A stretch of 64,000 nt of DNA from Strigops habroptila (taxonomy: Eukaryota > Chordata > Aves > Psittaciformes > Psittacidae). Made by a program: the position numbers and the translations under genes. Shown in pieces: positions 26,101 to 29,100 of this stretch. The DNA is taken from NCBI RefSeq assembly GCF_004027225.2, contig NC_044301.2:26186629-26250628 (forward strand), in the 5' to 3' direction. The first letter of the stretch is position 1, and every line of letters begins with the position of its first letter. The notes under the pieces were generated by a model. The model had not been told where the DNA came from, made no database searches, and saw only the letters and a program-made list of their open reading frames with translations.

Positions 26101-29100
26101 TATTTCCCTTATCATTATTGTTATTGGTGATAGCAGTAGTGGTTTTGTATTATACCTTAGTTGCAGGACTGCTCTTATCTCAACTCGTGGGAGTTATATT
26201 GTTCCGATTCTCCTCCCCATCCCTCTGGGAGCAGGGGGAGGAAGAAGGGGGGGAGTGAATGAGCGGCTGCGTGGTTCCGAGTTACCGGCTGGGCTTAAAC
26301 CACGAGAGTTCTTTGTGGCGCCCAACGTGGGGCAGGAAGAGTTGAGATAAAGACAGATCTGACCAGAGTGTGTCTAATCATATTTGTGATAAGCACTCAT
26401 TGTTACTAATCGGTCATGTTGATTTATTGGCTCTCAGAGTTGTTGCGCTTGATCTCAGAGTTTCAGCATGTTGTACCTTACTTACAGCCACTATTTGCTG
26501 TTTTAGTGTTTACCGGCTGGGGGGCCTGGGTTAAGGTTCTTGTTTAACTGCACTTCATGGCAATGACTTGTAATACAGTAGACTCACTGATCATGAAACT
26601 GGTCTGGCTTGCGTTCCCAGCATGGTCATCACCTCTATACTTTGGGAGGTATATAATGGAATTTTATAGCAATTACATATCTTTTCTTTCTCCTCAGGGG
26701 GTCAACCTATGAAGGAGGCATTCCCTTACATCCCCCGCTCCCCCCCCAGCTTATTTGCAACAGCAGTTGAGAGTTCTGAAGGTTTTGGATGGCCTTTGAA
26801 TACCCTTGAGACCTGCCTGCTGATTGTGCTGGGGATCAGCATGTAGGCACACATATGGAGTGTGTTTTACCCACGGCCATCCCACCCTGGGAACACCCTA
26901 TTTCATCTGATCTCGAAAGTTAAGCAGTATCGGGTTCAAATCTGGTCTAGGGTTAGACGACGATATAGGAGGACCACCAGGAGATTTTCCCTGAGGCTGG
27001 ACAGTCATGAGTGGCAGGGTGTGTGGGATAGTATGGGCAAGTATCTAGGCCAGTGGGCCCCTCCAATGCTTTGGAACTTCACCCCTGAACAAGTGCAACA
27101 ACCAGAAAAACTAGTAAAATGCTTAAATGAGGTGTGCTGTCGTCCTGGTTATACCAGAGAAGGACAAATCATGGCAACGTGCTGGGGCTTGGCCTACACC
27201 TACAGAGCCCTGCTCAACACTATCCAGCACCTTCAAAGAGAAAAAATGTCTCTGGATCTGATGGCAAAGCAACAGACAACGCAGCTACTCCAACCCTAGT
27301 GACAAGCACAGCAGCTACACCAACCCCAGTGACAAGCACAGCAGCCACTCAAACCCCCACAGCAACAGACAACACAGCTATTGGTGTTACTCAACCACCA
27401 AGCACAGCAGCTGCACCAACCTCGGCAATAGACACTGCAGCCACTCCAGCCACAGTGACAGACACTGCAGCTAAAACAAATGGCCAATTTGTGACAATAT
27501 CTGTTGCCCCTGTAAGCAAAAGCAAACGAGAGGCACAAAGAGCAACCCCTGCAGTGAAGAAAGATCAAGTCCCAATGCACTTCCTACAGGGGACAGCATC
27601 TGAACAGGAGTTACTACTACAGGGATCAGAGGAAGAGGAAGAAGAGGTGACTTCTCGACCCCGGACCTCAACCGAGCTGCGGAATATGCGAAAAGATTTC
27701 ACCCGTCTGCCAGGGAACACATCGTCACCTGGTTGCTCCGATGCTGGGACAATGGGGCCGATGGTCACGAACTAGAAGGTAAGGAAACCAAGCAGCTGGG
27801 ATCACTTGCTAGGGAAGGAGGAATTGACAAAGCAATTGCAAGAGAGAAATGAGCCCTCAGTCTTTGGAGGTGGCTCTTGGCAGCTGTGAAGGAAAGGTTT
27901 CCCTACAAGGATGATGTTATGTGTCGCTCAGCCAACTGGACCACGATAGAGAAAGGCATCCAGTCCCTGAGGGAATCAGCCATTCCAGAGATGACCTATC
28001 GTAGGCCGGATGCAGAGAATGCATCCGTAGACTCAGATGAAGTCGAATGTACACGACCCATGTGGCGGAAACTTACAGGGAGTGCACCGTCACCATATGC
28101 CCACTCATTGGCATCAATGACCTGGAAAGACGTAGCACCACCAACACTGGATGACGTGATTCATCAATTCTGAGAGTTCAAAGACTATCTCACCCCTTCC
28201 ATCATTTCAACTGTGGAAAAACTGCCCCAGAAGTTCAAACAACTGAGAGATGATTTATCCGATCTATCCAGCTCCCCACGTGTAACAACCCATGTCTCAA
28301 CTATTATCAGAAGGCACCCTACTGCTTGAGAGAGAAAACAAAGGAGGTACACGCCACCCTATGGTTTTACCTGCGGGATCACGGAGAAGACATGAGAAAG
28401 TGGGATGGAAAACCTACCTCAGTTCTGGAGCAACGGGTGTGTGAACTGAAGAGGAGAACAGCGGTCAAGGATGATCCTCCCAGGAAAGCTACTGCTCCAG
28501 TCTCTGGTGAGCAGTTTCCCAGATGGAGTGGAAGAGCTGCTTTACTCCAGCTCCTGTGATAAGGAATACTAATCCCTTTCTACAGGACATAAGTGGAGAA
28601 TCTTATGATCACTATTAGAGGGGCCCTGCCTCCAGCCAGGTGGAGGAGAGGGACAATTGGGTTTACTGGACTGTGTGGATCAGATGGCCTGGCACATCAG
28701 TCCCACAGAAGTATAAGGCTCTAGTACACACTGGTGCACAGTGCACCGATGCCACCGAGGCATCAAGGGGTGGAACCCATTTATATTTCTGGAGTGACAG
28801 GAGGACCCCAAGAGTTGACTGTACTGGAGACTGAAATCAGCCTGACTGGAAGTGGCAAAAGCACCCCATTGTGACTGGTCCAGGGGCTCCATGCATCCTT
28901 AGCATAGACTGTCTCAGAAGAGGGTACTTCAAAGACCCAAAAGGGTATAGATGGGCTTTTGGTATCGCTGCCTTGGAGACAGAGGAAATTAAGCAGCTGT
29001 CCAGCTTTCCTGGTCTCTCAGAGGATCCTTCTGTTGTGGGGTTGCTGAAGGTCAAAGAACAACAAGTGTCAATCATGACCACAACAGTGCACCGGCAGCA

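Follow-up and report, generated by a model that had tools for sequence, protein, structure and literature searches.

A 5S rRNA-derived segment in the gag gene of a foamy-virus-like endogenous retrovirus family of the kakapo, probably acquired by template switching

We analysed a 64-kb stretch of contig C25 (hereafter the window) in the 1.15-Gb genome of the kakapo, Strigops habroptila, which carries three copies, ERV1, ERV2 and ERV3, of one endogenous retrovirus (ERV) family. In each copy the gag gene contains a segment derived from 5S ribosomal RNA (rRNA). Very probably a foamy-virus-like avian ERV captured the host 5S rRNA by template switching of its reverse transcriptase (RT), and a piece of 5S would now form part of Gag. 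Since the same genome has other 5S copies joined to ERV sequence, such capture appears to have been repeated.

Results

The gag segment is derived from host 5S rRNA

An earlier note on this DNA had placed the segment at the same position in all three window copies, and this was found to hold:

26868..26936, plus strand: 5S-derived insert in ERV1 gag, one T followed by 5S nucleotides (nt) 1-68; reads YPRPSHPGNTLFHLISKVKQYRV
46364..46432, plus strand: the same 5S-derived insert in ERV2
63673..63741, minus strand: the same 5S-derived insert in ERV3, which retains 5S letters gone from ERV1 and ERV2

The earlier note had described 60 nt (26876-26935) as 5S-like, with 46 identical. The likeness is real and ungapped, and its extent is corrected here to 26869-26936, that is 5S nt 1-68. 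Comparison with the Rfam 5S model RF00001 gave a score of 29.3 bits for the ERV1 copy (E 5.4e-4 in 601 nt), 19.8 bits for ERV2 (E 0.12) and 15.5 bits for ERV3 (E 2). All three copies lie under the family cut-off of 38 bits, and an Rfam scan of the whole window returned zero matches at or above their own cut-offs. Because of the high E values, Rfam alone is insufficient proof for ERV2 and ERV3. Alignment to human 5S gave scores of 72, 50 and 70 for ERV1, ERV2 and ERV3, compared with maxima of 33, 34 and 29 among 2000 dinucleotide shuffles each, so that on this check the match beat every shuffle for every copy. The three insert sites were also the top three tiles for human 5S across the 64 kb on both strands.

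The host 5S genes were located in the same genome, mostly as an array on contig C8. Two variants that differ at nt 12 were present among the 20 listed copies that were read, and variant L029 served as the reference for the insert. Aligned without gaps, the insert matched host 5S at 54/68 sites in ERV1, 48/68 in ERV2 and 54/68 in ERV3, and matched human 5S at fewer (50/67, 44/67 and 50/67, respectively). Twenty-one sites vary among the three window copies, and the host 5S letter is present at all 21; the best other slide of the alignment reached 14, and none of 100,000 permutations reached 21. Seven insert sites are unlike host 5S in all three copies. Two further copies in the genome, L086 (54/68 to host 5S) and L066 (31/38 over nt 31-68, preceded by an unrelated 5' part), have gag downstream of the insert that resembles the insert-free type, and both retain 5S letters gone from the window copies. 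When the five copies are pooled, 66 of 68 5S letters survive; the two that no copy has are nt 1 and nt 23. The earlier note had asked whether a family consensus would be nearer to 5S than single copies are. In a copy-by-copy version of that comparison, the union of copies was nearer to 5S than any single copy, and letters spread over copies in this way are to be expected if the insert truly descends from 5S.

A chance likeness of a coding stretch to 5S rRNA would fit the Rfam scores below the cut-off and the modest identity of single window copies to host 5S (71-79%). It would not fit alignment scores that shuffles never reached, the larger number of matching sites with host than with human 5S, or the coincidence of the 5S-like stretch with an insertion gap (see below), and we count the host letter at 21/21 variable sites as already refuting it. 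We therefore consider chance to be scarcely conceivable. At the level of sequence, these comparisons confirm that the segment is 5S rRNA-derived. The central proposal of the earlier note, a 5S fragment in the gag frame of an avian ERV family, is borne out by the identity to host 5S, the variable-site test, and the insert-free relatives and parrot proteins described below.

The insert has an empty site in related gag genes

MAFFT alignments with no 5S row included, run at two settings against public gag relatives (one manakin protein and at least seven from contigs), opened a 23-residue protein gap at window 26868-26936, and default MAFFT placed a 26-column gap across this site in another alignment. 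Owing to other small indels, the net length difference to distant gag relatives is greater than 23 residues. At the nucleotide level, the insert-free locus L074 reads CTGCATATGGTT followed directly by CAGGTTTTG, L086 reads CTGCATATGCTTCATGTGTTTT, then 5S nt 1-68, then CAGGTCTTGG, and ERV3 reads CTGCATGTGTTCT, then 5S, then CAGGTCTTG. Insert-free copies thus pass from CTGCATATGGTT into CAGGT, and insert-bearing copies read TT(T/C)T, 5S nt 1-68 and CAGGT. From these junctions, the insert consists of one T plus 5S nt 1-68, 69 nt in all. L086 further points to a probable 9-nt duplication immediately upstream of the insert. At the right junction, 5S GGCTC (nt 65-69) and gag GGTTC agree at 4/5 positions, a possible microhomology.

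The weak extension of the match to about 26978 that the earlier note had considered is not upheld. The 3' half of 5S, sought after the insert in the three copies, scored like shuffles (206, 713 and 933 of 2000 scored as high or higher), and the sequence following the insert aligns with gag of insert-free copies, such that the 5S part passes straight into gag.

Among 30 gag loci, 15 carried the insert, one carried part of it and nine were readable without it, two of which (L071 and L072) seem to be duplicates of a single locus; the remaining five were unreadable by pattern, with insert scores at background. A first pass with window 26840-27000 yielded 1823 unverified candidates, of which the best 40 were scored. 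Among these best 40, 28 were read, including ERV1 itself, and the insert was present in 28/28, with a small indel inside it in one. Of the 40 scored copies, 31 lie on the 37-Mb contig C25; as a guess, C25 may be the W chromosome and the 102-Mb contig C26 the Z. No related loci were found in the viral contig or genome contig collections, no 5S pattern was found in viral contigs, and a protein search with ERV2 residues 1-62 gave no matches.

Most dispersed 5S copies examined are joined to the same ERV family

We also considered 5S matches elsewhere in the genome. Of 47 scored candidates listed, 24 lie outside C8; 20 of these were read with 2-kb flanks, one (C25:7593245) was read with 300-nt flanks and three were left out. 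In 16 of the 20 dispersed copies, sequence of the ERV family starts at most 9 nt from the 5S 3' end, and in none of these 16 is the ERV sequence of one flank resumed in the other within 40 nt. Among 600 control positions taken from these loci, abutment was non-contiguous at 14 and contiguous at 182. The 5' side of 5S abuts the ERV in 4/20 copies, or 5/20 if the ERV3 stretch is counted.

L096, L097, L099-L104, L106-L110, L112-L114: joined loci, nearly full-length 5S with ERV at the 3' end

The joints run into antisense ERV sequence in 12/16 cases and into sense in 4/16. Six joints (in L096, L099, L100, L108, L110 and L114) lie at the boundary between the long terminal repeat (LTR) and the primer-binding site (PBS). 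In the first five, the 5S 3' side meets ERV sequence that corresponds to 26314-26324; in L114 the joint corresponds to 26316 and is on the other side of the 5S copy. L097 and L112 join just before the 3' LTR, at positions matching 51902-51904. At least three T follow the 5S end in 9/20 dispersed copies, like the ends of RNA polymerase III (Pol III) transcripts, and in L107 an almost complete 5S patch lies within pol, about 200 nt of which is absent between the two flanks. Most simply, the ERV enzyme would often have jumped to the 3' end of 5S RNA, in which case the dispersed joints appear to be a record of repeated template switching and of recurrent 5S capture.

Two dispersed copies, L095 and L098, adjoin another repeat of the window (42617-42864, 1-239 and 8945-9031). 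This repeat is perhaps a long interspersed nuclear element (LINE) and a possible second route for 5S copies.

Template switching as the probable origin of the insert

The following series of steps could have produced the insert. During minus-strand synthesis, RT copying gag RNA would move from gag GGUUC to 5S GGCUC (nt 65-69), copy 5S back to its first nucleotide, and return to gag beside its departure point. The 69-nt product would preserve the reading frame and use the sole open sense frame of 5S, and the altered element, its 5S piece encoding about 23 Gag residues, would still be able to spread. In this scheme we infer the order of the template jumps, the packaging of 5S RNA in particles, and the neutrality or mild benefit of the peptide. 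Patch insertion is favoured since it predicts a left edge at nt 1, a right edge at an internal near-match and a return to the departure point; the left end in particular is where run-off at the end of the RNA would be expected. Template switching is further supported by the 16/20 dispersed copies that abut the ERV, against 14/600 controls. As for a patch of host RNA, the ungapped match to host 5S starts at nt 1 or 2 and ends at nt 68, and a patch-free form of the same element exists.

Several observations weigh against this reading. The left boundary is good to a few nt only, nt 1 is mismatched in all five copies, and the apparent 9-nt duplication directly upstream of the insert blurs this boundary further. 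Default MAFFT run without the upstream gag part opened no gap. Unlike the gag insert, which holds part of 5S and has an internal entry point, the dispersed copies that were read are with few exceptions near full-length and joined at the 5S 3' end. Four of the 20 dispersed copies (L095, L098, L105 and L111) do not abut the ERV, so other routes to 5S copies exist. Finally, codon-position counts over the three window copies showed no third-position excess in the insert, a test that was uninformative.

Alternatively, a 5S pseudogene or a 5S-derived short interspersed nuclear element (SINE) could have been inserted into a gag-carrying provirus, as DNA or via LINE machinery. 5S-derived SINEs exist, some being named in PMC10886601, and the position of L095 and L098 beside another repeat would suit such a route. 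Around the gag insert, however, no SINE body, poly-A or long target duplication was seen. Also against insertion of this kind are the start of the insert at 5S nt 1 and its end at nt 68, the near-match GGCTC/GGTTC at its right junction, and the 16/20 dispersed copies that are joined non-contiguously to the ERV. We regard it as improbable, and template switching as the much better account of the insert.

The insert is more likely a tolerated peptide than an RNA element

Of the three sense frames of the captured 5S part, one is open, and gag uses that frame. The insert encodes about 23 residues of Gag in a frame that is open in many copies. These residues follow a hydrophobic segment and precede a basic region, and the conserved EWQGVWD core lies further downstream. 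The earlier note had linked the 5S segment to the Arg-rich stretch RVRRRYRRTTRR. The insert does lead into this basic region, but in the alignments RVRRRYRRTTRR itself falls opposite the KVKQLFKNTT region in gag without the insert, which rules out a 5S origin for it. In a structure model of modest confidence (mean pLDDT 71.5, pTM 0.34), most of the insert lies in a helix that continues into the basic Arg-rich stretch. A fold search with the gag model returned a single row at a meaningless E of 2.7, and hence no structural match.

Selection might have favoured the encoded peptide because it gave Gag a new function, for instance by lengthening a basic helix that follows a membrane segment. This would be in keeping with the single modelled helix shared with the Arg-rich stretch, and with a reading frame preserved across many copies and across five parrot proteins, whose seven-residue loss is in-frame (see below). 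Protein collections favour open frames, however, the differences among the window copies had no third-position excess in the insert, and the search for structural matches was empty. Selection for a new function is thus possible but doubtful.

The suggestion in the earlier note that the segment was kept as an RNA signal fared worse. A functional RNA element (for packaging, dimerisation, Pol III promotion or binding of 5S proteins) would agree with the span of the insert, which covers a 5S stem-loop arm and the 5' strand of helix I, and with 34/45 pair cells that are still standard, more than in slid controls. Yet 2 of 15 5S stem pairs are lost in each of the three copies, the observed covariation in the 5S fold was reached by 344 of 500 shuffles, and the parrot forms are missing a stretch of the arm equal to seven residues. 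The 5S internal promoter comprises box A, IE and box C, parts of which lie after nt 68. Nothing 5S-like is found beyond nt 68-69, and a Pol III promoter is ruled out by this anatomy. The 5S fold is decaying without compensation. With this decay and no sign of constraint, we regard a retained RNA signal as very unlikely and the peptide as tolerated and possibly useful; a tolerated peptide extension, rather than an RNA element, is the most likely description of the insert.

At 26934-26943 and the matching place in ERV2, the word GGTTCAAATC, which we take to be tRNA B-box-like, spans the 5S/gag junction. It is probably derived, since it is absent from ERV3 and L086.

The insert occurs in shortened form in other parrots

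Predicted proteins of Amazona aestiva, Lathamus discolor and Neopsephotus bourkii contain the insert minus the same seven residues (five proteins from three genera: P0001, P0033, P0034, P0035 and P0038). Taken alone, these parrot proteins have the 5S-encoded residue in 12/16 columns, a count reached by none of 100,000 permutations. The captured piece, as judged from these predicted proteins, is common in its shortened form to the three parrot genera. A stork protein, P0037, is readable at the site and is without the insert; the remaining stork rows say little because they are mostly gene models with unrelated N-termini. Within the window, the capture predates the split of ERV3 from ERV1 and ERV2.

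A more far-reaching proposal is that 5S was a habitual acceptor at strand-transfer points (the PBS and the start of the 3' LTR), and that one such capture founded a useful Gag helix marking a lineage that expanded across parrots and the kakapo genome. We put this forward tentatively, as a possibility that we would not ourselves favour.

The ERV family in the window

The three copies and their parts are as follows:

about 25739-30860: ERV1
25739..26307, plus strand: ERV1 5' LTR, ends placed by eye from TG...GA/CA termini
26316..26333, plus strand: ERV1 primer-binding site, reads TGGCGCCCAACGTGGGGC
26709..26867, plus strand: N-terminal part of ERV1 gag upstream of the insert, with a hydrophobic segment and one internal stop
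26862..27299, plus strand: open piece of ERV1 gag with the insert and the conserved EWQGVWD core
45228-52472, plus strand: ERV2
45228..45797, plus strand: ERV2 5' LTR
46322..46816, plus strand: open piece of ERV2 gag with the insert
48844..50250, plus strand: ERV2 reverse transcriptase/RNase H frame
51905..52472, plus strand: LTR on the 3' side of ERV2
minus strand: ERV3, a copy that runs off the window end

ERV2 has matches to a protease-like domain (slightly below its cut-off), RT/RNase H and integrase. In a search restricted to solved structures, the top matches of its RT were Pr125Pol chains (E 1e-40), which we take to be foamy virus, and among these structures its nearest relative is thus spumavirus RT, as for a foamy-virus-like (class III) element. 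The primer-binding site TGGCGCCCAACGTGGGGC is presumably of the tRNA-Lys1,2 type, and as it is not of the tRNA-Leu type we did not file the family as ERV-L. The LTR pair flanking ERV2 has a Kimura two-parameter divergence of 0.107. No matching target duplication was seen, so these LTRs may not be partners; if they are, the divergence would mean an age of about 20-35 million years at bird substitution rates of 1.5-2.5e-9.

Upstream of the ERV1 and ERV2 gag pieces (26416-26695 and 45860-46207) there is a frame encoding several hydrophobic segments; on visual inspection it looks like the N-terminal part of P0017, P0034 and P0035, and in P0039 a hydrophobic N-terminus leads directly into gag. Gag in this lineage may begin with membrane segments. 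Further downstream in gag (27281-27471 and 46789-47126), repeats of a 30-nt type that code for Thr/Ala/Pro-rich sequence differ between the copies. The gag of ERV3 is split at 63325-63583 by about 260 nt that by eye start with TGTG and end with CACA; a short GGCAGG repeat stands on both sides, as for a small solo LTR.

Discussion

The window presents a natural germline case in which a structural RNA would have become protein-coding within the gene for a retroviral structural protein, and a single genome supplies the donor, the boundaries, the empty site and the intermediates. The 5S-ERV joints offer a fossil record of the non-self templates of an RT and of the sites at which it jumped, and through them genomes alone suffice to test whether an ancient retrovirus packaged host RNA. 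Patching of host RNA into a retrovirus is already known. Among the matches listed from open-licence titles and abstract openings, none described a gag gene or a bird ERV with 5S rRNA in it, which is weak evidence of absence; nor did these literature listings contain a large germline family in which part of Gag is 5S-coded and 5S joints recur.

Birds carry foamy-virus-like (class III) endogenous retroviruses, which the present family resembles in having an RT nearest to Pr125Pol chains among solved structures. ERV-L elements use a tRNA-Leu primer site, in contrast to the tRNA-Lys1,2-like site and the gag with a 5S piece described here. 5S-derived SINEs such as SINE3 and AmnSINE1 are alike in that 5S-derived sequence was scattered by reverse transcription. 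Here, no 5S head followed by a SINE body or LINE-like tail was found, and the 5S sequence is part of a retroviral gene.

Among LTR elements with 5S rRNA-derived sequence, the closest parallels are the Cassandra and Ajax terminal-repeat retrotransposons in miniature (PMC10853983, PMC10886601). In those, 5S lies in the LTR of small non-autonomous elements. In the present family it is internal, starting about 560 nt beyond the 5' LTR, and it ends at nt 68, so that the 5S internal promoter is not kept; gag and pol are both present, the latter seen as the protease-like, RT/RNase H and integrase matches. LTR-mediated retroposition by template switching, chicken included (Tan et al., as described in PMC5408686), likewise joins cellular RNA to LTR-element sequence. 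The cases described there are gene retrocopies, whereas here the RNA is 5S and several joints lie at the PBS or before the 3' LTR.

The nearest precedent for the proposed mechanism comes from retroviral recombination. According to a review (PMC4997597), particles of murine leukemia virus contain 5S rRNA, packaged host RNA can be patched into recombinants, and patches from a tertiary template occur. The same review cites Hajjar and Linial (1993) for an experimental recombinant into which 7SL was patched. Both that recombinant and the gag insert would represent a short host Pol III RNA template-switched into a retroviral genome. Compared with the 7SL case as given there, the RNA in the kakapo is 5S, and the event would be a natural one within the coding part of gag, passed on to a large ERV family.
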